This document shows positions 5,787 to 37,980 of a stretch of 64,000 bases of DNA, in pieces. The notes below the pieces were generated by a model that saw only the letters and a list, made by a program, of their open reading frames with translations, was not told the origin of the DNA and ran no database searches. Both the position numbers and the translations under genes were made by a program. The DNA is from Aureimonas sp. Leaf427. GTDB taxonomy: Bacteria; Pseudomonadota; Alphaproteobacteria; Rhizobiales; Rhizobiaceae. Position 1 is the stretch's first letter, and every line of letters begins with the position of its first letter. The stretch is taken from assembly GCF_001425485.1 (NCBI RefSeq), contig NZ_LMQW01000001.1, forward strand, positions 99,016 through 163,015, in the 5' to 3' direction.

Positions 5787-6536
5787 TCAGTGGTGCGGAT
5801 GCACCGCGTCGTTGAGGTACATGCAGGTCAGGACCGCGAAGACGTAGGCCTGGAGGAAAGCCACCAGGAATTCAAGTCCGGTCAGCGCGACGGTCATGAT
5901 CATCGGCAGGATGGCGCCGCCGACGCCGACGGCGCCGAGCGCCGAGAGCGAGACCACGAAGCCCGCGAAGACCTTCAGCGTGATGTGACCCGCCAGCATG
6001 TTGGCGAAGAGACGAACCGAGAGCGAGATCGGCCGCGACAGGAACGAGATCACCTCGATCAAGACGACGAAGGGCAGGATGACCCCCGGCACGCCGTGCG
6101 GGACGAAGAGCTTGAACCAGGAGAGCCCGTGCTTGGCGATGCCGTATCCCACCACGGTGAGGATGACGAGCAGCGCCAGCGCGAAGGTGACGATGATGTG
6201 GCTCGTCACCGTGAAGAAATACGGGAACATGCCGAGCAGGTTCGCCACCAGCACGAACATGAAGAGCGAGAAGACGAGCGGGAAGAACTGCATCCCGGAC
6301 TTGCCCGCCGCGTCGCGCAGCATGTTGGCGATGAACTCATAGCTCATCTCGGCGATCGACTGCGTGCGGTTCGGCACGAGCGCGCGATTGCCGGTCGACC
6401 ACCAGAGGAAGCCGGCGGCAACCGCCGTCGTGGCGACCATGAACAGCGACGAATTGGTGAAGGAGAAATCGAGCCCGCCGATCTCGATCGGCACCAGCTT
6501 CTGGATCACGAATTGATGGAGCGGGTCGTTAGCCAA
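5787..6536 (-). CDS. atpB: ATP synthase F0 subunit a
   Basis: A 249-residue integral membrane subunit with about five or six hydrophobic segments, forming the two proton half-channels beside the c-ring. The indispensable arginine is Arg175 in [15 protein letters not shown], the family's signature helix. Length and topology are as expected for alphaproteobacteria. It is transcribed after atpI and before atpE. Confidence 0.96.
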
Positions 6537-6656
6537 ACTTCACTGCCCTTTAGCTGCGGCAGGCTCCCGGCGGAGCCCTCCTGCCCCTCGTCGGAGCCGC
6601 CCTGCCATAGCCGCATGGTTTGGCGCGCGCAACCGTTTCTTCGCCTTGATCCCGAC

Positions 6657-7109
6657 CTAATCTGCGGGATCGGCATCCTTTTCCACGGGTGTGGCCTTCG
6701 CCGCGGGGACGGGCCCGGCCTGCGGCACCCGCCCGACCGATCGCAGCACGTTGAGAACGCCGGCGACGAAGCCCAGGAGCAGGAAGACGATGAGGCCGAA
6801 GGGCTGCGTGCCCGCGACCTTGTCGACGAGATAGCCGATGCCCGCTCCGGCGATGACGCCCGCGACGAATTCGCTGGCGAGCTTCATCCCGTCCGCCGCG
6901 CCCCGGATCGACGAGCCCGGCCCGTCCTTGGCGGGCTTCTCGGCAGCGCGCTTGGCCGAAAGCCGGGCCTCCAGCGCCTCCCGGCGCGCCACGAGCTCGG
7001 CATCGGGCACGGGCTCCGGGGGCAGATCGGGTTCGGCTTCTCCGGGACGGCGGCGATCGGACATGACGGAACGTTCCTTCCCGGCGACCGGCCGGCACCC
7101 GTCAGGCAT
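6657..7109 (-). CDS. atpI: ATP synthase accessory protein AtpI
   Basis: A 150-residue membrane protein that opens the F0 operon. The N-terminal 70 residues are polar (RRRPGEAEPDLPPEPVPDAE...). Two membrane helices follow (FVAGVIAGAGIGYLVDKVAG and GLIVFLLLGFVAGVLNVL). AtpI family proteins are thought to assist c-ring assembly or supply magnesium; they are not essential subunits. The 120-bp gap to atpB is longer than the other spacings. Confidence 0.88.
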   Translation of the reverse strand: MPDGCRPVAGKERSVMSDRRRPGEAEPDLPPEPVPDAELVARREALEARLSAKRAAEKPAKDGPGSSIRGAADGMKLASEFVAGVIAGAGIGYLVDKVAGTQPFGLIVFLLLGFVAGVLNVLRSVGRVPQAGPVPAAKATPVEKDADPAD

Positions 7110-7159
7110 GGAGGGCCGGACGCTCCGCCGTCAAGCGCCGGGGCGCCGCCCGGGAGCCC

Positions 7160-8416
7160 TTATCGCCAGCCGCCACCATAGGTGCGGTAGAAGATATGGC
7201 GACCGATCTTGTCGACCTCCTGCATGGCGTTGGCCCAGCGGGGATGGACGTAGGTCGCATGGTAGTGGGTGGAGGAGCCGACGTCGGCGAGCCAGATCTT
7301 GCCCTCCGAGACCTTTCCGGCGATCTCCTTGGCCAGCGCATAGGCGCGCTTGTTGAGGATGCGGTCCTTGATGGCGTCGCAGGCGAAGGAGAACTGGCAG
7401 CGATTGCGCCAGGTCTTGTTCTGGTAGACGACGCCGCAGATCGTCTTCGGATAGGTCGGGTTGCGCACCCGGTTCAGGATGACCTGCGCGACGGCGGCCT
7501 GGCCCTCCTCCGATTCGCCGCGCGCCTCGAAGTAGATGCCGGTGGCAAGGCAGGTCTGCTCCTTCGCCGAGAAGGCGGAGGCCGGAAGCGGCGTCGCGGC
7601 CCAGGCGTGGTCGTCGCGCCCGAGCGGGGGAACGAAGTCCCGGCCGGCGGGTCCTGTGTCCTTGAGGATGCGCCCGAAGAGGCTGGCGACCGGGTTGGCG
7701 GCAGGCTCCGTCGCGGCGTAGCCGAGCGCGGAGATCTCGCTCGCCGGCGCGCTGGCCGCGATCAAGGCCGGCGCGGCCTTGCCGCCGCTCTTCTTCGATT
7801 GGATGGCCGCGATCATCACGCGGTCCGGCGTGCCCTTGCGCAACGGGGAGTCGGCCTCGACCTTCGGCTCGAAGGTCATGGCGACCTCGATCGCGCGGTC
7901 GGCGGCGACGGGCTTGGCGGCGGCGGTCATGAAGCCGGCGGTCGACAGATCGACGCTCGGCCGCAGAAGGCTCTGGCGCTCCAAGATGGAGCCGGCGCTG
8001 AAGGCTTTCGGCAGCGAGCGCGGCGTCGCGGCGAGGACGCGCCGGCTCTTGTCGCGGCGGTTGACGCGCGCCTCGTCCGGCGTCTCGAAGCTCTCGCGGC
8101 CGGTCTCCATCGTGTAGACGCCGCCCGCCGCCTGGAAACCCGCCCCCTTCGGCGCGGATGTCGACCGGGCCCCGTCGGCGAAGGCGAAGGTGGCCTTCTC
8201 GATCGAACCTGCGGGCGAGGGAATGAAGGTCGCCTGCCAGCGCGCCTGGTTGCGAGGGCCTTCCAGAAGGCTCGTCATGTCCTGAAGCGCGATATCCGCG
8301 GTCGTCAGAGGAAGCATCGCGAGCCCCGCCCCGAGAATGAGAGCGAAGCGCTTCGGGACGGCCGGACGGCGCCCGATCAGGTCCCTCAGCGCGGGGCGCT
8401 TCGCCGTCTGTTCCAT
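7160..8416 (-). CDS. Cell wall hydrolase, SleB/Hydrolase_2 family
   Basis: A 418-residue protein with an N-terminal membrane anchor or signal (FALILGAGLAMLPLTTADIA) and a long low-complexity middle. The C-terminal Hydrolase_2 domain contains CLATGIYFEARGESEEGQ, with the probable catalytic Glu in ARGE, and VILNRVRNPTYPKTICGVVY. SleB-type domains act on peptidoglycan, as lytic transglycosylases in spore-formers; in non-sporing bacteria they are taken to remodel the cell wall. I chose ATG 8416 over 8443 because GAGG lies nine bases upstream. The inverted repeat at 8460-8484 sits in the promoter region. Confidence 0.85.
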   Translation of the reverse strand: MEQTAKRPALRDLIGRRPAVPKRFALILGAGLAMLPLTTADIALQDMTSLLEGPRNQARWQATFIPSPAGSIEKATFAFADGARSTSAPKGAGFQAAGGVYTMETGRESFETPDEARVNRRDKSRRVLAATPRSLPKAFSAGSILERQSLLRPSVDLSTAGFMTAAAKPVAADRAIEVAMTFEPKVEADSPLRKGTPDRVMIAAIQSKKSGGKAAPALIAASAPASEISALGYAATEPAANPVASLFGRILKDTGPAGRDFVPPLGRDDHAWAATPLPASAFSAKEQTCLATGIYFEARGESEEGQAAVAQVILNRVRNPTYPKTICGVVYQNKTWRNRCQFSFACDAIKDRILNKRAYALAKEIAGKVSEGKIWLADVGSSTHYHATYVHPRWANAMQEVDKIGRHIFYRTYGGGWR

Positions 8417-27917: not shown

Positions 27918-28040
27918 GAGGACCCAATACATCAGGGCCGGTCTCTTCCCCTTCGGCGGAGATCGGCCCCGTCGGTGGAGATCGGCTCGTCTCGGCCTCC
28001 CGTCCCGGTTGACACCCGAACGCCGCTCGTCCAGGGTCGC

Positions 28041-28138
28041 CGCATTCCGAGGGGCGCACTTCCTGCAGTGCTGAGATGGCGTCGAGCCAGCACCCTTGAA
28101 CCTGATCCGGGTCATGCCGGCGTAGGAACGGGAATGGG
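28041..28138 (+). promoter_or_regulatory. TPP riboswitch (THI element)
   Basis: All conserved blocks of the thiamine pyrophosphate aptamer are present in order: GGGGCGC, GTGCTGAGATG, CACCCTTGAACCTGAT, CGGGTCATGCCGG and CGTAGGAA. The closing helix pairs CATTCC (28043-28048) with GGAATG (28131-28136). It lies about 65 bases before the first gene of the thiamine salvage operon. No strong terminator is visible downstream, so control is probably at translation initiation. Abundant TPP should shut the operon off. Confidence 0.95.
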
Positions 28139-28201
28139 CTGAGGCCCCCTCACCTTCTTCGCACGCCGAACACCCGCGATCGTCATGGATGCGGCGGGCG
28201 G

Positions 28202-29032
28202 ATGATCGAGGCAGGAACGGCGGAATTGAACGGCGGACGCGAGCGGCGCCTCCGCGCGCCCTGGCGAATGCCGGCCGGGCGCGGCGTCTCCATTCTCGGC
28301 GCGACGCTGCGCGGCATCCTTGCCATTGTCCTGATCTGGCTTCTCGCGCTTCTCGCGCTCGACCCGCCCCCTTTCATGCTGCCCTCCCCGTGGAGCGTCG
28401 CCGAAACGCTGGTGGCGCGGTACGATTTCCTCCTGCGGCAAGCCGCCGTCACCACGCTCGAGATCGCGCTCGGCCTCGTGCTCGGCACCGCGACCGGCGT
28501 AGCGGTGGGGCTCGGCGTCGTCATGGTGCCGCGCTTCGGCCACCTCGCCTGGCCGCCGATCCTCGCCATCCAGGCCATGCCCGTCTTCGCCATCGCGCCG
28601 CTGCTCGTGCTCTGGTTCGGCTTCGGCCTTGCCTCCAAGGTCGTGATGGCGGCGCTGATCCTCTTCTTTCCCGTCGCCTCCGCCTTCGCCGACGGCCTGC
28701 GCCGCACCGATCCCGATCTTCTCGACGCGACGGCTCTGACCGAGGCCTCCCGCTGGCAGGCCTTTCGCCATGTGCGCATTCCGCTGGCGCTGCCCGCGCT
28801 CGTCACCGGCCTTCGCGTCGCCGCCCCGCTCGCTCCGCTCGGCGCGGTGATCGGCGAATGGGTCGGCGCGTCCGGCGGCCTCGGCTTCGTGATGATCCAG
28901 GCCAACGCCCGCATGCAGACCGATCTCCTCTTCGCCGCCCTCGCCATTCTCGCCGTCCTGACGCTGGCCCTGCGCGCCCTCGTCGATGCCCTTGCCGCCC
29001 GCCTGACCCCCTGGGCGCCCGAAACCCGCTAG
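28202..29032 (+). CDS. ABC transporter permease for thiamine precursor (ThiX-like)
   Basis: A 276-residue inner-membrane permease with six or so helices and the EAA loop EASRWQAFRHVRIPLALPAL. Pyrimidine or sulfonate-type (SsuC/ThiX) permeases look like this. Being first after the TPP riboswitch and followed by a ThiY-like binding protein makes a pyrimidine precursor of thiamine the likely cargo. ATG 28202 follows GGCGGGCGG; ATG 28268 is an alternative. No ATP-binding subunit gene lies in the operon. Confidence 0.88.
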   Translation: MIEAGTAELNGGRERRLRAPWRMPAGRGVSILGATLRGILAIVLIWLLALLALDPPPFMLPSPWSVAETLVARYDFLLRQAAVTTLEIALGLVLGTATGVAVGLGVVMVPRFGHLAWPPILAIQAMPVFAIAPLLVLWFGFGLASKVVMAALILFFPVASAFADGLRRTDPDLLDATALTEASRWQAFRHVRIPLALPALVTGLRVAAPLAPLGAVIGEWVGASGGLGFVMIQANARMQTDLLFAALAILAVLTLALRALVDALAARLTPWAPETR

Positions 29033-29049
29033 CCTTCGAAAGCTTTGTC

Positions 29050-30000
29050 ATGATCCGCAGATCCCTTCTCGCCGCCGGCTTCGCCCTCGCCGCCGCGATC
29101 CTTCCCGCCAAGGCCGAGGCGGCGGAGAAGCTGTCCGTCCTCCTCGAATGGTTCGTGAACCCCGATCACGCGCCGCTGGTCGTCGCCAAGCAGCTCGGCC
29201 TCTTCGAGAAGGCCGGGCTCGACGTCGAGCTGATCCCGCCGGCCGATCCGTCGGCACCGCCGCGCCTCGTCGCGGCCAAGCAGGCCGACATCGCGCTGCA
29301 CTACCAGCCGAATCTCTTCCTCGACGTCGAGAACGGCCTGCCGCTCGTGCGCTTCGGAACGCTGGTCGAGACGCCGCTGAGCACGGTGATGGTGCTGGCG
29401 GACGGCCCGATCAAGTCGCTGGCCGACCTCAAGGGCAAGCGGGTCGGCTACTCCGTCGCCGGCTTCGAGGACGTGATGGTCAAGCGCATGTTGGAGCACA
29501 ACGGCATCGACACGCCCGACGTCGAGCTGATCAACGTCAACTTCTCGCTCTCGCCCTCGCTGATCGCCGGTTCGGTCGATGCGGTTGTCGGAGCCTACCG
29601 CAATTTCGAGCTGACGCAGCTGGAGCTCCAGGGCCGCAAGGGTCTCGCCTTCTACCCCGAGGAAAACGGCGTGCCGGCCTATGACGAGCTCATCTACGTC
29701 ACCCATCGCGATCTCGTCGCCGACAAGCGCCTGCCGAAGTTCCTGGATGCGGTGGAAGCGGCCACGATCTACCTGACCAACCATCCGCAGGAGGGCTGGG
29801 AGCTCTTCGTCAAGGCCTATCCCGATCTCAACGACGAGCTGAACCGCCGCGCCTGGTTCGACACGCTGCCCCGCTTCGCCAAGCATCCGGCGGCGCTCGA
29901 TGTCGGCAGCTACGAACGCTTCGGCGCCTTCATGAAGGAAACCGGGCTCATCAAGTCCGTGCCGCCGCTGGCCGACATGGCCGTGGCGCTCACCCGATGA
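29050..30000 (+). CDS. thiY: ThiY-like pyrimidine-precursor binding protein
   Basis: A 316-residue periplasmic binding protein of the NMT1/THI5-like family, with signal peptide (LLAAGFALAAAILPAKAEA). Family features are LLEWFVNPDHAPLVVAKQLG at the start of the mature protein, then GYSVAGFEDVMVKRM and AVVGAYRNFE. ThiY proteins bind N-formyl aminopyrimidine or hydroxymethylpyrimidine for thiamine salvage. ATG 29050 lies 17 bp after the permease stop; the end overlaps thiM by four bases. Confidence 0.88.
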   Translation: MIRRSLLAAGFALAAAILPAKAEAAEKLSVLLEWFVNPDHAPLVVAKQLGLFEKAGLDVELIPPADPSAPPRLVAAKQADIALHYQPNLFLDVENGLPLVRFGTLVETPLSTVMVLADGPIKSLADLKGKRVGYSVAGFEDVMVKRMLEHNGIDTPDVELINVNFSLSPSLIAGSVDAVVGAYRNFELTQLELQGRKGLAFYPEENGVPAYDELIYVTHRDLVADKRLPKFLDAVEAATIYLTNHPQEGWELFVKAYPDLNDELNRRAWFDTLPRFAKHPAALDVGSYERFGAFMKETGLIKSVPPLADMAVALTR

Positions 30001-30734
30001 GCCACGACATCGAGACGGTCGCCGTCGCCGACGTTCTCGCCCGCCTTCGCGAGCGGCGCCCGCGCGTCCACTGCCTCCTCAACACCGTGGTGCAGAACCT
30101 CGTCGCGGATGGGCTGACCGCGCTCGGCGCCGTTCCCTCCATGACCGCGAGCCCGGAGGAGATCGTCTCCTTCGTCGGGCGAGCGGACGCGCTGCTCGTC
30201 AATCTCGGCACGCTCTCGGCCGAGCGCGCGAAGGTCAGCGAGATCGCGGCGGCGGAGGCGGTGCGGTCGGGCAAGCCCTGGGTGCTCGATCCCGTGAAAT
30301 GCGAGGATTCGCCGACGCGCCTCGCCCTTGCCCGGCGCCTCGTGGCGGCCGGCCCCTTCGCCGTGAAGGTCAATGCCAGCGAGGCGGCGGCTCTCGCCCC
30401 GGCGCCCGGCATCCTCGTCGTCGAGACGGGGCCGAGCGACCAGCTGCGCCTCGGCGATCGACGCGCCGCCGTGGCGAACGGCCATGCGCGCCTCGCCGGC
30501 GTAACGGGCACCGGCTGCCTTGCGGGCGCCATTCTCGCCGCCTGCGCCGCGGTGGAGCCGGACAAGCTTCTGGCGGGAGCGGCGGCCATGGCGATCATCG
30601 GCGTCGCCGCCGAGATCGCGGCGCCCCGGAGCCGCGGCCCCGGCAGCTTCGCCGTCGAGCTGCTCGACGCGCTCGGCAATCTCTCGGCCGGAGATCTCTT
30701 CGCCCATACGAGGATCCGCCATGCCGGCGCCTGA
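29997..30734 (+). CDS. thiM: Hydroxyethylthiazole kinase
   Basis: A 245-residue kinase that phosphorylates 4-methyl-5-(2-hydroxyethyl)thiazole, salvaging the thiazole half of thiamine. Motifs are VHCLLNTVVQNLVADGLTA, LLVNLGTL, PWVLDPVKCEDSP, and the C-terminal anion hole VTGTGCLAGA with the catalytic Cys. Length fits the family. The start overlaps the thiY stop by ATGA, and its 3' end overlaps thiE by 14 bp. Confidence 0.94.
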   Translation: MSHDIETVAVADVLARLRERRPRVHCLLNTVVQNLVADGLTALGAVPSMTASPEEIVSFVGRADALLVNLGTLSAERAKVSEIAAAEAVRSGKPWVLDPVKCEDSPTRLALARRLVAAGPFAVKVNASEAAALAPAPGILVVETGPSDQLRLGDRRAAVANGHARLAGVTGTGCLAGAILAACAAVEPDKLLAGAAAMAIIGVAAEIAAPRSRGPGSFAVELLDALGNLSAGDLFAHTRIRHAGA

Positions 30735-31380
30735 CATCCGCCTCTATGCCCTTGTCGACGCCTCGCTCGGCGCCGATCGCCTGCCCACCCTTGCCGGTCT
30801 CGCCGCCCGGAACGGCGCGACGCTGATCCAGTACCGCGACAAGACGGCCGGCACGCGCGCCATGGTGGAGCGCGCCCGCGCGATCCGCGCGGCGCTGGCC
30901 GGCACCGGCGTGCCGCTTCTCGTCAACGACCGCGTCGACGTCGCGCTCGCCGCCGGGGCCGAGGGCGTCCATCTCGGCCGCGAGGACATGCTGCCGGGCG
31001 AGGCGCGCGCGCTGCTCGGCCCGAACGCCATCATCGGCATCACCGTGAAGAACGAGGCGGATGCGCATGGCGCGGCCTCGCCTTGCGTGGACTATGCCTG
31101 CATCGGCGGCGTCTTCGAGACGCTGTCGAAGAAGAACCCGGATGCGCCCGTCGGCCTCGAAGGTCTGGCGCATCTGCGCGCGCTCGTGCGGACCGTCCGG
31201 CCGGAGATCCCCGTCGGCGCCATCGCCGGAATCGATCTCGCCCGCACCCCGCTCGTCCTCGCGGCGGGAGCGGACGGAGTGGCGCTGATCTCCGCCCTCT
31301 TCCGTGCGAAGGACGTGCCGGAGACCGCGCGCGCCTTCCGGGCCGCCGTCGATGCGGCGCTCATGGAGCGTGGCCGATGA
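30721..31380 (+). CDS. thiE: Thiamine phosphate synthase
   Basis: A 219-residue TIM-barrel enzyme that joins HMP pyrophosphate with thiazole phosphate to give thiamine phosphate. Conserved segments are [31 protein letters not shown], and [32 protein letters not shown] forms the phosphate and thiazole site. It starts inside the end of thiM and is followed by thiD in an ATGA overlap. Confidence 0.95.
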
Positions 31381-32186
31381 GCGTCCCCATCGCCCTCACC
31401 ATCGCGGGTTCCGACAGCGGCGGCGGCGCCGGCATCCAGGCGGACCTGAAGACCTTCTCCGCCCTCGGCGTCTTCGGCACGAGCGCGCTCACCGCCGTCA
31501 CCGCGCAGAACACGCGCGGCGTCACGGCCGTGGAGGATCTGTCGCCCGCGATGGTCGGCGCGCAGATCGACGCGGTCCTCTCCGACATGGCGGTCGGCGC
31601 GATCAAGGTGGGCATGGTCTCGCGCGCCGAGACCGCCAGAGCCGTGGCCGAAGGGCTCCGGCGCCACGATCGGCGCGTGGTGCTGGACCCCGTCATGGTC
31701 GCGACATCGGGCGACCGGCTGCTGCGGGCCGACGCGGTCGCCGCCCTCGTCTTCGAACTCCTGCCGCTCTCCGACATCGTGACGCCGAATCTGCCCGAAG
31801 CCTCGATCCTCTCCGAGATGCCGCTGGCGGAGGACGAGCGCGCCATGGCCGTCCAGGCCGAGCGCATCCTCGCGCTCGGCGCGCGCGCCGTCCTGATGAA
31901 GGGCGGCCACGGAACAGGGCCGGAAAGCACCGACATCCTCTTCGACGGCGACACGGCGCACCGCTTCGCCGCCCCGCGCATCGACACCGCCAACGACCAC
32001 GGCACGGGCTGCACGCTCTCCGCCGCGATCACGGCGGGCCTTGCGAAGGGACTGCCTCCGGTCGAGGCCGTCGAGGCCGCCAAAGCCTATCTCGGCGCGG
32101 CGCTCGCCGCCGGCCGGACGTTCGGCATCGGACGGGGCCGCGGCCCCGTCCACCATTTCCATGCCTGGTGGGGGGCGAACCGATGA
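31377..32186 (+). CDS. thiD: Hydroxymethylpyrimidine/phosphomethylpyrimidine kinase
   Basis: A 269-residue kinase that phosphorylates HMP twice. The ribokinase-fold signatures are [20 protein letters not shown] at the start, VKVGM-like [20 protein letters not shown], and the C-terminal anion hole [16 protein letters not shown] with the catalytic Cys region. Length matches the family. ATGA overlaps at both ends couple it to thiE and tenA. Confidence 0.95.
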
Positions 32187-32857
32187 GACTGATCGAGCAT
32201 CTGAAAGAGGCGGCCGGCGCCAGCTGGACCGCCTATATCCGGCACGACTACCTGCGCCGGCTGGCGGAGAACCGGCTGCCCGCCGAGGCGTTCCGCCACT
32301 ATCTCGTGCAGGACTATCTCTTCCTCATCCAGTTCGCCCGGGCGCAGGCGCTCGCCATCTACAAGAGCCGGACGATCGCCGAGATGCGCCATGCGCAGGG
32401 CTCGCTCGCCGCCATCCTCGACGTGGAGCTTGGCCTCCATGTGCGCATCTGTGCCGGCTGGGGCCTTTCGCCCGCCGATCTCGAACGGGCGCCGGAACAC
32501 GCCGCGACCGTCGCCTATACGCGCTTCGTGCTGGATGCGGGCATGTCCGGCGATCTCCTCGACCTTCGCGTGGCGCTCGCCCCGTGCGTCGTCGGCTATG
32601 CCGAGATCGCGAAGGAGCTTGAAGACGAGGTCCGCGCGATCGACGGCCATCCGCAGGGCCCCTGGGTCGAGGAATATGCCGGCGCCGCCTATCAGGATGT
32701 CGCGGAGACCGCCCGCCTCGAACTCGACCGCCTCGGCGAGGGCGTCGTCCCGCCCCGCCGCCTCGCCCATCTCGAACGTATCTTCACAACCGCCTGCGAT
32801 CTCGAATCCGCCTTCTGGCAGATGGCGCTCGACGTGGCGGGAAAGGACCGGCCATGA
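32183..32857 (+). CDS. tenA: Thiaminase II / aminopyrimidine aminohydrolase
   Basis: A 224-residue all-helical TenA protein that hydrolyses aminomethylpyrimidine (a thiamine breakdown product) to HMP. Asp44 (VQDYLFL) and Cys135 (LAPCVVGYAEI) fall at the same numbers as the catalytic pair of the Bacillus enzyme, and the conserved C-terminal Glu is in DLESAFWQMA. It is therefore of the Cys-containing TenA class. The start overlaps thiD and the end overlaps the TRAP binding protein gene, both by ATGA. Confidence 0.94.
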   Translation: MRLIEHLKEAAGASWTAYIRHDYLRRLAENRLPAEAFRHYLVQDYLFLIQFARAQALAIYKSRTIAEMRHAQGSLAAILDVELGLHVRICAGWGLSPADLERAPEHAATVAYTRFVLDAGMSGDLLDLRVALAPCVVGYAEIAKELEDEVRAIDGHPQGPWVEEYAGAAYQDVAETARLELDRLGEGVVPPRRLAHLERIFTTACDLESAFWQMALDVAGKDRP

Positions 32858-33840
32858 CGATCACCCGCCGCAGACTTCTGGGAACACTCGGCGCGAGCCT
32901 TCTCGCCGCGCCCGCCCTCACCGGCCGCGCCAGAGCCGCGACGCGCCTCACCGTCGCCTCGCTGCTCGGGCCGGACAAGCCGGAGACGCGCATCTGGAGC
33001 GTGATCGCCGAGGCGGTGGAGAAGCGCCTGCCCGGCGCCTTCGCCTTCCGCACCGTGGCGAACGCGGCGCTCGGCGGCGAGCGGGATGTCGGCGAGGGCC
33101 TTCGCCTCGGCTCCGTCCAGGCAAGCCTCCTCACCACGGCCTCGCTTTCGGCCTGGGCGCCGGAAACGCAGATCCTCGACCTGCCCTTCCTTTTTCGCGA
33201 CCATGCGCATCTCATGACGGTCGTGGGGGGCGAGACCGGTGCGCGCCTGAAGGCCCGGCTTGCCGCGGAGCGCTTCGCCGTTCCTGCCTTCATCGACTAC
33301 GGCGCGCGAAACCTCATCGCCAAGGCGCCGATGGAGACGCCGGCCAGCGTCGCGGGAAAGCGCATCCGGGTGCTGCAGAGCCCGCTCCATGCCGCGCTGT
33401 GGAAGGCCTACGGCGCCTATCCGACCGCGATCCCGATCCCGGAAACCTACAACGCCCTCCAGAACGGCGTCGTCGACTGCATGGACCTGACGCGCCCGGC
33501 CTATGCGAGCCTCAAGCTCTACGAGGTCGTGCCGGTGATGACCGAGACGCGCCACATCCGCGCCTCCGGCGTCGTCGCCTTCGCCGGCGCCTTCTGGGAC
33601 GGGCTCGACGCGGCGCAGCGCGAGGTCTTCACCGAAGCCTCCGTCCTCGGAGCCACGGCCTTCCAGACTCTGATGGACGAGGAGGACGCAAAGGCGACCG
33701 CCGTCATCGAGGCCGCCGGCGGCTCCCATGTCGAACCCGCCGACCGCGCCGACTGGGAGCGCATCGGCCGCAGCATCTGGCCCGACTTCGCGGAAACCGT
33801 CGGCGGGATGGCGCGGATCGAGGCGGCGGCAGCGGCGTAG
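32854..33840 (+). CDS. TRAP transporter substrate-binding protein (DctP family)
   Basis: A 328-residue periplasmic binding protein with a twin-arginine-like leader (TRRRLLGTLGASLLAAPAL). The DctP signature GKRIRVLQSPLHAALWKAYG contains the Arg that normally clamps a substrate carboxylate; NALQNGVVDCMDL follows. It is the last gene of the riboswitch-controlled thiamine operon, coupled to tenA by an ATGA overlap. Its partner permease is presumably the fused TRAP permease encoded tail-to-tail on the other strand. Predicted cargo: a carboxylated thiamine precursor or breakdown product (inference). Confidence 0.88.
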   Translation: MTITRRRLLGTLGASLLAAPALTGRARAATRLTVASLLGPDKPETRIWSVIAEAVEKRLPGAFAFRTVANAALGGERDVGEGLRLGSVQASLLTTASLSAWAPETQILDLPFLFRDHAHLMTVVGGETGARLKARLAAERFAVPAFIDYGARNLIAKAPMETPASVAGKRIRVLQSPLHAALWKAYGAYPTAIPIPETYNALQNGVVDCMDLTRPAYASLKLYEVVPVMTETRHIRASGVVAFAGAFWDGLDAAQREVFTEASVLGATAFQTLMDEEDAKATAVIEAAGGSHVEPADRADWERIGRSIWPDFAETVGGMARIEAAAAA

Positions 33841-33857
33841 CGGGCGGAACCCGCCCG
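33841..33857. terminator. Hairpin between convergent TRAP genes
   Basis: CGGGCGG, AAC, CCGCCCG directly after the dctP stop codon, in a 41-bp convergent gap. No U-tract follows on either strand, so it may end transcripts weakly or protect 3' ends from both sides. Confidence 0.4.
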
Positions 33858-33881
33858 CCGGCTCGTAACCCACCGTCTGCC

Positions 33882-35678
33882 CTACACCCGCAATCCGGCG
33901 GCGATGCAGAGCACGGCGAGCGCGCCGAGGAGAGCGGCGAGATAGGGCAGGACCGCACGGAACAGCGCGCTCGGCGGGATCTGCGTCACGGTCGCGACGA
34001 CATAGACGAGAATGCCGACCGGCGGCGTCAGGCCGTGGATCATCAGGTTGACCACCAGGATGACGCCGAAATCCGTTCCGTCGATGCCGCTCGCGACCGC
34101 CAGCGGCACGAGGATCGGCGCGAGGATGAGGATCGCCGCGCCGATGTCGAGCACGCATCCGGCGACGAGAAGCACGAGGTTGCAGGCGAGAAGCACGCCC
34201 CATGGCCCCTCGCCGAGAGCGCCCGCGATTCCGGCCACCTTGTCGGCGACGCCGTCCACCGCGAGGAGGAAGGCGAAGGGCGCGCAGGCCGCGATCAGGA
34301 GCCCGATCGCCGCCGTCTCCGCGCCGGCCGAAGCGAAGGCGGTCGCGATCCCGCGTCCGCGAAGGCCCGCGCGAAGCGCCAGGACCAGCGTATAGGCGGC
34401 AGCGAGAGCGGCCGCCTCCGTCGTCGTGACCACGCCGAAGCGGATGCCGGCGACGACGATGATGCCGAGCCCGAAGGCCGGCACCGCGCCGAAAAGCGCC
34501 GCCTGCCGCTCCGCGCCCGAGGCGCGCGGGAGCGCGGCGGCCTGCCCGGCGCGCAGGCGGATCGCGATGGCGAGCGCTAGCGCCATCACTCCGCCGGCGA
34601 AGAACCCGCCGACGAGCAGCTTGCCGATCGACAGATCCGTGGCGGAAGCCAGAATCAGGAAGGCGATGGAAGGCGGGATCACGTTGTCGAGCGTCGACGT
34701 CGCCGCGATGATCGCACCCGCCTCCGCCGGCCGCGTTCCGCGCCGGATCAGCTCGGGCGCGAAGGTGCGCGCGCCGAAGGCGGCATTGGCGATGGAGGAG
34801 CCGGAGGCGCCGGAGAAGAGGACGCTGGTCAGGAGCGTCGTCTGTGCGAGACCGCCCCGCAGATGCCCGGCGAGCGCCGCCGCCAGCCGAACCAGCGCGC
34901 CGGCCGCGCCCGAGGCGGAAAGCAGCCCGCCGACGAGGAGAAAGAAGGGCACGGCGAGCAGCAGGAACTTCGAGACGCCCGACACGGCGGAGGCAACGAG
35001 AGCCGGCGCCGGCAGCATTGCGCCAAAGGGCTCGGCCGCGACCGTGGCGGCGAGGAAGACATGCGGCATCGGCGCGCCGACGAGGAGACCCGCCGCAGCA
35101 AAGAGGCCGGCGACGAGGCTCGGCGAGAGATCGAGGAACCGCGCCGCGAAGACCAGGCCGAGACCGAGAAGACCCGCGATGCCGGCGCCGAGCGCGAGCA
35201 CGCCGAGCCGCCCCTCTCCGGCGCGGCGCAGCGAGAGGCTCGCGAGCGTTGCGACCCCCGCGAAGGCGAAGGCGGCTAAGCGCAGCCATTCGGGAAGACC
35301 GAGCGCCGGCGAGATGCCCCCGACATGGCCGGCCGCCGCAAAGCCCCCCAGCGCCAACGCCGCGCCCGCCGCAAGAACGGGAGCGTCCGCACCGGCATCC
35401 GCGACGAACCGGGCGCGGGGCCCGAGCCTTGCGACCGCGACGTCGAAGCGCATGGCGAGCGGACCGCCCAGCGCCAGCGGGGCGCCGAGAGCGATCAGCG
35501 CGACGAAGAGCCAGATCGCCGCCTCCTCCGCGCCGAAGAGACCCGCGCCCCATCCATAGCGCATCGCGACGGCGAGGAGGACGACGGCTAGAAGCAGCGC
35601 CAGAAGGAGGCCGCAGAGCGCTCGCAAAAGCCGCTCGAAGGCGCCGAGCAGCAACATTGCGGCGGGCGAGACGATCAC
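33882..35678 (-). CDS. TRAP transporter fused small-large permease (DctQM)
   Basis: A 598-residue membrane protein. The first 150 residues, with four helices (such as ALCGLLLALLLAVVLLAVAMRYGWG), form the small DctQ-type subunit. The rest is the DctM ion-transporter-like subunit with FSGASGSSIANAAFG, AAIIAATSTLDNVIPPSIAF-type motifs and NLMIHGLTPPVGI. GTG 35678 overlaps the stop codon of the phospholipase D-like gene as GTGA; ATG 35657 is the alternative. It should use an ion gradient together with the DctP-type protein encoded on the opposite strand. Confidence 0.88.
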   Translation of the reverse strand: MIVSPAAMLLLGAFERLLRALCGLLLALLLAVVLLAVAMRYGWGAGLFGAEEAAIWLFVALIALGAPLALGGPLAMRFDVAVARLGPRARFVADAGADAPVLAAGAALALGGFAAAGHVGGISPALGLPEWLRLAAFAFAGVATLASLSLRRAGEGRLGVLALGAGIAGLLGLGLVFAARFLDLSPSLVAGLFAAAGLLVGAPMPHVFLAATVAAEPFGAMLPAPALVASAVSGVSKFLLLAVPFFLLVGGLLSASGAAGALVRLAAALAGHLRGGLAQTTLLTSVLFSGASGSSIANAAFGARTFAPELIRRGTRPAEAGAIIAATSTLDNVIPPSIAFLILASATDLSIGKLLVGGFFAGGVMALALAIAIRLRAGQAAALPRASGAERQAALFGAVPAFGLGIIVVAGIRFGVVTTTEAAALAAAYTLVLALRAGLRGRGIATAFASAGAETAAIGLLIAACAPFAFLLAVDGVADKVAGIAGALGEGPWGVLLACNLVLLVAGCVLDIGAAILILAPILVPLAVASGIDGTDFGVILVVNLMIHGLTPPVGILVYVVATVTQIPPSALFRAVLPYLAALLGALAVLCIAAGLRV

Positions 35679-37231
35679 AGCTGCGATTCCAGCGGCAGCC
35701 AGGAGACGACGCGCGCCAGGATGCGGCGGGCGAGACTTGCCTCCGGTTCGCGCGTGTGGACGACGGAAACGCCGCCCTCCTCGCTCGTCCAGCGCAGATC
35801 GCCCGCGGCATCGAGGGTCACGCGATAGCTGTCGGTCGGCCGCGTCTCCTGGCGGAACAGGTCGCGGACGACGCCGACCAGCTCCGGCACCTCGAAGAGG
35901 ATGCCCATTTCCGTGTTCAGCGAGGCCGAGCGCGGATCGAAATTGAGCGAGCCGACGAAGCCCAGCCGATCGTCGACCGTGAAGGCCTTGGTGTGGAGGC
36001 TCGCCTGGCTGGAGCCGCGAAAGGACAGCGTCTGGGGCCCCTCGCCGAAGGGCCGGAGCTCGAAGAGATTGACCCCGCCGCCGAGGAGATCCTTGCGATA
36101 GGGCGCATAGCCGCCATGGACGGCCGCCACGTCCGTCGCCGCCAGCGAGTTCGTCAGCACCGAGACCTCGACGCCGCGCGCGGAAAGATCGACGAAGGCG
36201 GCCGTGCCCTCGGCGCCCGGCACGAAATAGGGCGAGATGATTTCCAGCCGCTCCTTGGCGGAAAGGAGCTTGGGCACGATGCGCTGCATCATCGTGTTGC
36301 CGTCGCTGTTTCCGGCCGCCTTTTCCGGCGGATCGGCGACGAGGCGCGCCGTCGTCGTCCAGTGCAGCTTGTCCTCGTCGAGCAGCGTGAATACCGAGAC
36401 GCGCTCGCGGATGCGCTCCGCATAGGGCCGCAGCGCCTCGTCGGCGAGGCGCGCGTCGAGAGCGACCTTCAGCTCCGCCAGCGGCAGCGCCTTGCGGCTG
36501 GAGAGCGCCGCGACGGGCAAAGCGAGGCCGCTGTTCCAATAGGCGTCGAACATCGCCTCGGTCTCGCCGAGCACGGGGCCGGTCACGATGAGGTCGAGAT
36601 CGCGGAAGTTGGAGCTTTCGGCGGCGTCGAAATACTCGTCGCCGATGTTGCGCCCGCCGACGACCGCGACGCGCCCGTCCGCGATCCAGGCCTTGTTGTG
36701 CATGCGCCGGTTCACGCTGAAGGCGCGCAGCGCCATCTCGATCCCGCGTCGGAGCGCGTTCTCGCGGGCCCGCGTCGGGTTGAACATGCGCACCTCGATC
36801 GAGGGATGCGCATCGAGCGTCACCAGCGCCTCGTCGTAGCCCTTCGCGCCGAGATCGTCGAGGAGAAGGCGCACGCGCACGCCGCGCCCTGCGGCGTCGA
36901 TCAGTTCGCGCAGGAGGAAGTGGCCGGTCAGGTCGTCCTGCCAGACGTAGTAGAGAATATCGAGGCTGCGCCCGGCCGCGCGGGCCGAGAGCGCGCGCGC
37001 GGCGAAGGCGTCGAGATTGGAGGAGACCGCGGCAAGGCCGCTCTCGGTCTCGTGATCGGCCGAGAGCGCGGCAATCTTGGCGTCGATCTCGGTCGTTCCG
37101 CCCGCATGGCTCTGCGCATGGGAGGGGGGGCCTGCCGCCCGCTCCGCGAACCGCCCGAACGCATAGGCGGCCAGGACCGCCGCGACGACGAAGGCGAGCG
37201 CGACGATCCCCGCGATCATGATCCAGCGCAT
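35675..37231 (-). CDS. Phospholipase D-like / cardiolipin synthase-type protein
   Basis: A 518-residue protein with one N-terminal membrane helix (MIAGIVALAFVVAAVLAAYAFG) and two HKD catalytic motifs: HNKAWIADGRVAVVGGRN and HTKAFTVDDRLGFVGSLN. The pair forms the phosphatidyl-transfer site of the PLD superfamily. Its layout resembles inner-membrane or periplasmic PLD-like proteins (YmdC/ClsC type) that remodel phospholipids. ATG 37231 follows GGAGGAG. The stop overlaps the TRAP permease start, an unusual coupling. Confidence 0.88.
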   Translation of the reverse strand: MRWIMIAGIVALAFVVAAVLAAYAFGRFAERAAGPPSHAQSHAGGTTEIDAKIAALSADHETESGLAAVSSNLDAFAARALSARAAGRSLDILYYVWQDDLTGHFLLRELIDAAGRGVRVRLLLDDLGAKGYDEALVTLDAHPSIEVRMFNPTRARENALRRGIEMALRAFSVNRRMHNKAWIADGRVAVVGGRNIGDEYFDAAESSNFRDLDLIVTGPVLGETEAMFDAYWNSGLALPVAALSSRKALPLAELKVALDARLADEALRPYAERIRERVSVFTLLDEDKLHWTTTARLVADPPEKAAGNSDGNTMMQRIVPKLLSAKERLEIISPYFVPGAEGTAAFVDLSARGVEVSVLTNSLAATDVAAVHGGYAPYRKDLLGGGVNLFELRPFGEGPQTLSFRGSSQASLHTKAFTVDDRLGFVGSLNFDPRSASLNTEMGILFEVPELVGVVRDLFRQETRPTDSYRVTLDAAGDLRWTSEEGGVSVVHTREPEASLARRILARVVSWLPLESQL

Positions 37232-37980
37232 GAAGGGCTCCTCCGAAAGACCGGCCGCTCCAGCGCCCATCGCAACGGAAGCGACGACCCCCTTGCGGCA
37301 GCGCGGGAACCTATAGGCGATCCTGCGGGACGCCGCATCCTGCCGCGCCCTGCGCTGCACGCGATCGGCGAAATCCGTTCGCTCGACGATCCGCGATCCG
37401 GGGACCTGCTTCATCACCGGAGAGCGACATCTTCGAAATCGACCGACCGGAAGGCCCCTGCCTATCGGCCGAGGGCTGCCGACGTCGTCGCGTCAGGGAT
37501 GCAATACGAATCACAACCGACCACTTTGTTTCAAATGTCCCAAAATATTTGATGTCTCCTTTGCGGGGCGATAGCAACTCAGCTGGAAATCAGGAATTTC
37601 AATCCCTTAAGACGTATAAAAAAGGCGCATTGACATTATACTTAATACGTAAATTTTGCGCTATATTTTTAACTTCACATTCGCCGGCCGCTCCGGCTGG
37701 GCGGATTTGTCTTACGAGTGGCATTTACGCTTGCCTTGACTATCAGTCAGCCAATATAGATGGGCTTAGACGACGCCGGAAACTTGGCAAAGCACACTCG
37801 AAGAATAGGGGGACGCCCTCGCCGACGACATTGGATATCGGGACTTCGCGGGCTGCCCGACAGAGAACATAGTAAGCTTCAAGAAGAGTTAGTCTTCTCG
37901 AGAACTGCTCTGCAAGCCAGCCGTACCTGAGGACTAGATGTGTTTCAATCTGCTGAATCACATGCGGAAGCTTGCATCTG
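37232..37980. other. Intergenic AT-rich island
   Basis: About 750 bp without a convincing gene. From about 37500 the composition falls well below the high-GC background, most strongly at 37600-37670, which contains TTGACA (37630-37635) and TATA-like runs that resemble promoter hexamers. The island precedes a lone AraC-family regulator and may hold its promoter, or be imported DNA. A weak reverse frame at 37743-37961 is listed separately. Confidence 0.6.
37743..37961 (-). CDS. Possible small protein in AT-rich island
   Basis: A 72-codon frame starting at GTG 37961 with balanced, non-high-GC codon use unlike its neighbours. The product (IETHLVLRYGWLAEQFSRRL at the start, then a mixed helical composition) is not recognised. 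There is no good ribosome binding site. It could be a remnant of a transferred gene. A competing 107-codon frame on the plus strand is no better supported. Confidence 0.2.
   Translation of the reverse strand: MIQQIETHLVLRYGWLAEQFSRRLTLLEAYYVLCRAAREVPISNVVGEGVPLFFECALPSFRRRLSPSILAD

Follow-up and report, generated by a model that had tools for sequence, protein, structure and literature searches.

Results

A TPP riboswitch operon ending in a TRAP transporter gene

The stretch of DNA analysed here, 64,000 nucleotides (64 kb) of Aureimonas sp. Leaf427 and referred to as the window, contains a thiamin pyrophosphate (TPP) riboswitch followed by a thiamin (vitamin B1) salvage operon whose last gene, dctP, encodes the substrate-binding protein of a tripartite ATP-independent periplasmic (TRAP) transporter. 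Relatives of this DctP lie behind TPP riboswitches in many other genera; we conclude that the TRAP family is real, recurrent, TPP-linked and for thiamin salvage, with 5-(2-hydroxyethyl)-4-methylthiazole-2-carboxylate (cHET) as the leading candidate for its cargo. The operon is made up of the following features, given with the models that identify them.

28040..28145, + strand: TPP riboswitch aptamer (RF00059)
28202..29032, + strand: thiX-like ABC permease (PF00528; the name thiX comes from position and tblastn kinship)
29050..30000, + strand: thiY-like NMT1/THI5 substrate-binding protein (PF09084, 237 bits)
29997..30734, + strand: thiM, hydroxyethylthiazole (HET) kinase (PF02110 above cut-off in two stretches; NF006830 above cut-off)
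30721..31380, + strand: thiE, thiamine phosphate synthase (PF02581 and TIGR00693 above cut-off)
31377..32186, + strand: thiD, kinase of hydroxymethylpyrimidine (HMP) and HMP phosphate (PF08543 and TIGR00097 above cut-off)
32183..32857, + strand: tenA, salvage-type thiaminase II (PF03070; TIGR04306 134.7 bits, cut-off 130)
32854..33840, + strand: dctP, TRAP substrate-binding protein (PF03480 169 bits; NF037995 183.9 against 50; family alignment)

The aptamer (cmscan, + strand) scores 67.6 bits against a gathering score of 54.3 and is the sole Rfam match above gathering score in the window. Pfam and NCBIfam give the order thiX-thiY-thiM-thiE-thiD-tenA-dctP, with all genes on the + strand. As read from the sequence, thiX and thiY are 17 nt apart, thiM and thiE overlap by 14 nt, and 4-nt overlaps join thiY to thiM, thiE to thiD, thiD to tenA and tenA to dctP. 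An original prediction, made without database searches, had described this gene order behind a TPP riboswitch, the ATGA overlap of tenA and dctP and the chain of overlaps from thiY onward; its observation is confirmed in each of these respects.

The window ThiM passes NF006830 (209 against 180) and fails TIGR00694 (159.5 against 256.4). When ThiM proteins were compared across the window and nine genomes (G001, G008, G013, G033, G165, G256, G335, G357 and G399) two kinds were seen, one matched by PF02110 end to end and the other in two stretches with a gap in mid-profile; that of the window is of the two-stretch kind.

TPP riboswitches recur upstream of the TRAP family

The scan of genome contigs gave 25 DctP relatives of 52-60% identity and the plasmid search gave 12 records, 11 of which were taken in; with further loci from genome searches, and after duplicates were removed, 63 distinct DctP-family loci were available, the window included. 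In 25 of these 63, dctP is preceded by a TPP riboswitch on its own strand. In the 24 linked loci among the 62 outside the window the riboswitch is found 1.9-6.1 kb upstream, never in the opposite sense, with a score of 61.8-81.0 bits; all 25 aptamers exceed the Rfam gathering score. Chance would be expected to produce well below one such case across 62 loci, an estimate based on the strain's 5.4 Mb genome, which has three TPP sites. The R1 aptamer search drew on seven of the aptamers that it later recovered, and the linkage count therefore relies on the Rfam results. Rfam was applied to 12 of the unlinked loci (L007-L010, L014 and seven more) and R1 alone to the rest, except for L090, which was covered by a core-motif pattern; an R1 match of 13.7 bits in L014 was not counted, and Rfam finds no TPP riboswitch there. 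L008, which is also among the unlinked loci, is cut by a contig end after thiE-thiD-dctQM-dctP, where dctQM denotes the fused small and large membrane subunits of the transporter.

Four layouts can be distinguished among the linked loci. Nine have TPP-thiX-thiY-thiM-thiE-thiD-dctQM-dctP (L011, L012, L018, L037, L043, L044, L049, L060 and L087), two are shorter (L028 with thiXY, L017 with thiE), and 13 have a riboswitch and TRAP genes with no match to another thi gene in the stretches examined (L041, L062 and the 11 carriers within a single genus, Pleomorphomonas according to L027, in which the order is TPP-NIPSNAP-dctQM-dctP). The fourth layout is that of the window alone. Linkage is carried by, among others, Agrobacterium, Rhizobium, Ensifer, Allorhizobium, Neorhizobium, Pseudorhizobium, Martelella, Pleomorphomonas and Neomegalonema. 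It is clear from the 24 other linked loci that this is not an oddity private to one strain, and from the 13 loci where TRAP genes stand alone behind the riboswitch that they are not hitch-hikers behind thi genes. The idea of the original prediction that DctP is TPP-linked and belongs to thiamin salvage is therefore supported. The test it named did not come out in the form proposed: linkage to the riboswitch and to thiXYMED is conserved and linkage to tenA is not, since tenA-dctP adjacency was found in the window only and the window TenA matched no other dctP locus. A class-wide sample of 205 genomes held one other carrier, G587 (48% identical), with no TPP riboswitch in the 17 kb covered, by the core-motif pattern only.

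Some further features of these loci may be recorded here. No gene for a ThiZ ATPase is seen in the window operon, so that the ATPase for ThiXY would have to come from elsewhere; the nine loci of the first layout likewise have no ThiZ between thiXY and thiM. In L027 the NIPSNAP-family gene (7861-8193) lies between the TPP riboswitch and dctQM, and has counterparts in ten more genomes of the genus. In L016 a MocR-type protein (GntR and aminotransferase domains) is encoded directly upstream of the TRAP genes at 6480-8024, and in four loci of Bosea type (L009, L013, L015 and L031) dctP has no adjoining dctQM recognisable by tblastn.

Conserved residues of DctP

The family carries the signature YGAR / IRVIQSPLHT / MDLTK, of which the window has the variants IRVLQSPLHA and MDLTR. 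Two arginines, R152 and R172, are invariant among 22 aligned members; we take them to have the carboxylate-binding role known from SiaP. H179 and W183 are also invariant, as are D211-L212-T213, at which three paralogues from the same genome have ENP or ENG; these controls are three of its five other DctPs, namely those that align by tblastn at 1e-5. Position 214 is mostly K, with R in the window, Q in L026 and I in L028. The pocket motif is common to TPP-linked and unlinked members.

The window DctP falls short of the DctP subfamily model TIGR00787 (141.1 against 175.05). When it was compared with models of known B1 transporters (ThiB, ThiY and others) in Pfam and NCBIfam, only DctP/TRAP models matched at E 1e-3. 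In the PDB it matches 82 distinct sequences at E up to 1e-3, the best being 4p9k and 4n15 (E about 3e-39).

The TRAP family occurs with thiM

DctP (E at most 1e-85) was counted in 26 genomes of a fixed sample of 397 from the order; thiM is present in 177, thiG in 192 and tenA in 160. Carriers of DctP nearly always have thiM (25/26, against 152/371 of the remainder; p 1e-8), and the association is also seen when counted by genus (9/10 against 62/132; p 0.017). It persists within genomes that have tenA (20/20 against 90/140; p 5e-4) and within those that do not (5/6 against 62/231; p 0.008). The link of tenA to DctP is weaker within thiM-positive genomes (20/25 against 90/152; p 0.07). Furthermore, thiG is rarer in carriers (5/26 against 187/371; p 0.002). 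In a Pleomorphomonas-type genus (g131), 10 of 11 TRAP carriers have no thiG and two members without the TRAP system (G237 and G415) do, in lists where members lacking both would not appear.

The genome of Leaf427 itself has thiC and thiM. A search for thiG at E 1e-10, which did not extend to Thi4-type thiazole synthases, gave no match. Its three TPP sites are that of the window, one before thiC and one before thiB-thiP-thiQ, a ThiBPQ-type set in which thiB scores 370.6 bits (cut-off 317) and thiP and thiQ fall just below their cut-offs. With thiC and ThiBPQ present and thiG undetected, the pyrimidine and whole thiamin are covered and the thiazole would be the unmet need, barring another synthase.

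The membrane subunits and the origin of the window arrangement

The membrane half of the transporter and its neighbours lie beyond dctP as follows.

33840..33858, no strand assigned: GC-rich hairpin between dctP and dctQM, a possible shared terminator, weak (fold of 33836-33885)
33882..35657, - strand: dctQM, fused TRAP small and large membrane subunits, 591 aa, ATG at 35657 (PF04290 and PF06808 above cut-off on 33885-35600)
35675..37417, - strand: phospholipase-D/cardiolipin-synthase-like gene (PF13091; TIGR04265 below its cut-off)

The original prediction had rightly recognised a TRAP protein in the operon and had overlooked this membrane half, which lies on the - strand just outside the piece it described. 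dctQM and dctP are convergent, and a DctP without a permease is thereby ruled out. No second TPP aptamer, for dctQM or otherwise, was found in the window; dctQM being on the opposite strand without an aptamer of its own, dctP alone of the TRAP genes can be under the riboswitch here. dctQM probably shares a transcript with the cardiolipin-synthase-like gene, which is 17 nt upstream of it. The latter gene has no tblastn match in the other dctP loci; it is outside the conserved system, and its position suggests a rearrangement in this strain. The region 33836-33885 folds with -20.5 kcal/mol (z -1.47), and a terminator scan detected none between dctP and dctQM.

A congener, G001, has TPP-thiXYMED-tenA with no dctP (L070), and DctP was found at E 1e-60 in none of five sampled congeners, one of them just 65% complete. 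The window therefore resembles the operon of G001 with dctP added after tenA. Trees were built from 56 DctP rows (three duplicates and L042, which matches in two frames, were left out, and L087-L094 not included) and, by a quick method, from 53 DctQM rows (duplicates and matches below 450 aa, L043 among them, were left out). On the DctP tree the TPP label changes 8 times, against 17.5 in shuffles. It had been expected beforehand that the window DctP would fall inside the TPP-linked clade; the tree says otherwise, and only its DctQM groups there, in a cluster where 10 of the 11 rows, itself counted, are TPP-linked (SH-aLRT 98, with a warning of long branches meeting). The window DctP is placed weakly (86/74) with Kaistia-type proteins.

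Discussion

Taken together, these results point to a TPP-regulated TRAP importer of an acidic thiamin precursor, most likely a thiazole acid, a reading to which we give a probability of roughly 0.7; cHET is the leading candidate within that class, at lower confidence. At low TPP the operon would supply the binding protein of the importer, DctP would capture the anion in the periplasm through R152 and R172, and the fused DctQM would bring it inside, driven by a cation gradient. ThiM would then phosphorylate the imported precursor and ThiE would couple the product with HMP pyrophosphate to give thiamin monophosphate. Both the action of the riboswitch on dctP and transport by the TRAP system are, in this scheme, predicted from the genes and their arrangement. 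The original prediction had suggested a carboxylated cargo, perhaps a breakdown product of the thiazole or pyrimidine kind; its interpretation is partly supported, in that a carboxylated thiazole best fits the co-occurrence with thiM and a genome with thiC and no detected thiG, and the cargo is deduced from those patterns. A thiazole acid is thus the probable class of cargo, and cHET may be the compound, although we name it tentatively.

The case for cHET draws on published work. In the parts of PMC5899164 covered here, phosphorylated cHET is what the bacterial thiazole synthase makes and what ThiE accepts, so that no enzyme beyond the ThiM and ThiE of the operon would be needed; sub-picomolar cHET supports growth of a thiG mutant of E. 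coli, which requires more than 100 nM when given HET; and the transport systems for cHET are described as being 'with unknown sequence identity'. In river water, the covered part of PMC10807462 gives medians for the two water types sampled (HZ, SW) of 222 and 80 pM for cHET, 4.6 and 3.1 pM for HET and 0.21 and 0.23 pM for B1.

Several observations weigh against this reading. A TPP riboswitch is missing from 38 of the 63 loci. In seven of these 38 (L030, L038, L039, L042, L051, L052 and L059) an SsuA/NMT1-like protein, with no obvious signal peptide in the three examined, and an SsuD-like monooxygenase are encoded upstream of dctQM, and in 12 (of Bosea, Kaistia and Lampropedia type, and L042, which has both contexts) NIPSNAP precedes dctQM. 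A cHET importer needs neither enzyme and these contexts therefore count against it; they point to organosulfur chemistry, which would suit a thiazole and a sulfonate alike, and it is possible that the SsuA/NMT1-like protein, the SsuD-like FMNH2 monooxygenase and the TRAP transporter form an organosulfur module. Among genomes, the Fisher p values ignore shared ancestry, tenA is enriched overall in carriers (20/26 against 140/371; p 1e-4), four DctP carriers hold both thiM and thiG, G299 has the TRAP system without thiM, and 152 genomes have thiM without the TRAP system. A link between the TRAP system and loss of thiG within thiM-positive genomes is expected if the cargo is cHET, yet not required. 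Presence of the TRAP system had been expected to follow loss of thiG, and among thiM-positive genomes it does not: absence of thiG is no commoner with the TRAP system (21/25 against 118/152; p 0.6). The branch of the window DctP is long (1.13) and falls outside the TPP-linked DctPs. Finally, we know of no such TRAP transporter in E. coli. According to the same portions of PMC5899164, E. coli itself uses cHET.

Alternatively, the TRAP system could import an acid from the pyrimidine side, such as 4-amino-2-methylpyrimidine carboxylate or the methanesulfonate left by sulfite cleavage of thiamin, from which SsuD-like or NIPSNAP enzymes would make an HMP precursor in some species. TPP control and the neighbours thiD, thiE and thiXY fit both halves of thiamin equally, the SsuD-like and SsuA/NMT1-like genes of the seven loci and the overall enrichment of tenA would be accounted for, and the PDB holds a sulfonate-binding TRAP protein (isethionate DctP, 8t9t, by its title). 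However, the tenA link is unclear within thiM-positive genomes whereas the thiM link persists within those with tenA, the window genome has thiC and should therefore make its own pyrimidine, and neither the window nor any of the nine full operons gives an SsuD-like or NIPSNAP match; a pyrimidine acid thus seems unlikely. It could also be that the family imports an organosulfur compound or organic acid as a source of sulfur or carbon, and came under TPP control in cases where that compound also results from thiamin breakdown (thiazole-acetate or thiamin-acetate). Such a role would agree with the SsuD-like and NIPSNAP contexts that lack TPP across many lineages, and with a pocket motif that linked and unlinked members have in common, but the presence of thiM in all but one carrier, linked or not, and the existence of TPP-only TRAP operons make it improbable.

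The window dctP may further be questioned as a displaced passenger of changed or no function, added behind tenA while dctQM was flipped behind an unrelated gene. This would suit the operon of G001, the lack of DctP matches in the five sampled congeners, the long branch of DctP with R at position 214, and the cardiolipin-synthase-like neighbour of dctQM; both genes are nevertheless open, dctP retains the invariant residues of the family and its ATGA coupling to tenA, and the window DctQM groups with TPP-linked DctQMs, and we regard this reading as quite improbable. That the cargo is thiamin itself or its phosphates, to which TPP control and an operon able to serve any B1 vitamer would also answer, is very unlikely, given the TPP-linked ThiBPQ set in the same genome, a thiM that would be superfluous for thiamin uptake, and the fact that TRAP binding proteins typically bind anions and acids.

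If the cargo is indeed a thiazole acid, one may speculate, with some reserve, that this family is the missing high-affinity cHET transporter and the first TRAP system for a B1 precursor, that thiazole auxotrophs live on thiazole leaked by B1 producers, and that in this strain the binding protein alone was kept under the riboswitch while the permease escaped. B1 producers and auxotrophs exchange thiazole precursors, chiefly cHET, and a TRAP family that goes with both the TPP riboswitch and thiM is a concrete transporter candidate in culturable Pleomorphomonas, Rhizobium and Ensifer. Were this true, genotypes of B1 exchange could be called from genomes, and uptake of vitamin precursors would be added to the roles of TRAP transporters.

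As far as the literature search reaches, a TPP-linked TRAP family for thiamin salvage is undescribed. ThiW, ThiU, PnuT and YkoEDC are B1-tied transporters and none of them is a TRAP system. ThiV, ThiT, CytX, YkoF and omr1 are tied to B1 or were found through TPP riboswitches, and again none is of TRAP type in the parts of PMC10881298 and PMC12236431 covered, whose transporter lists name no thiazole-acid transporter. The absence of TRAP systems from published B1-transporter lists, asserted in the original prediction, held in these two papers and in the covered part of PMC3766115, where 'TRAP' is the RNA-binding attenuation protein and no transporter; the papers searched, as far as these were covered, mention no thiamin transporter of TRAP type. 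Of the known importers, ThiXYZ (with ThiY), which takes up pyrimidine, shares thiX and thiY with the window operon, but it is of ABC type, the window DctP and DctQM match no ABC model, and thiZ is not in the operon. The thiamin importer ThiBPQ is also TPP-linked in this genome (L069), but it too is of ABC type and lies at another locus. The closest likeness is to TRAP transporters of the DctPQM type, among whose solved binding proteins are DctP, SiaP and the isethionate protein: the window family shares with them the DctP sequence, the fused DctQ-DctM and the conserved arginine, and differs in the DLT of positions 211-213 (ENP or ENG in the paralogues of the same genome), in the invariant H179 and W183, and in its linkage to the TPP riboswitch.

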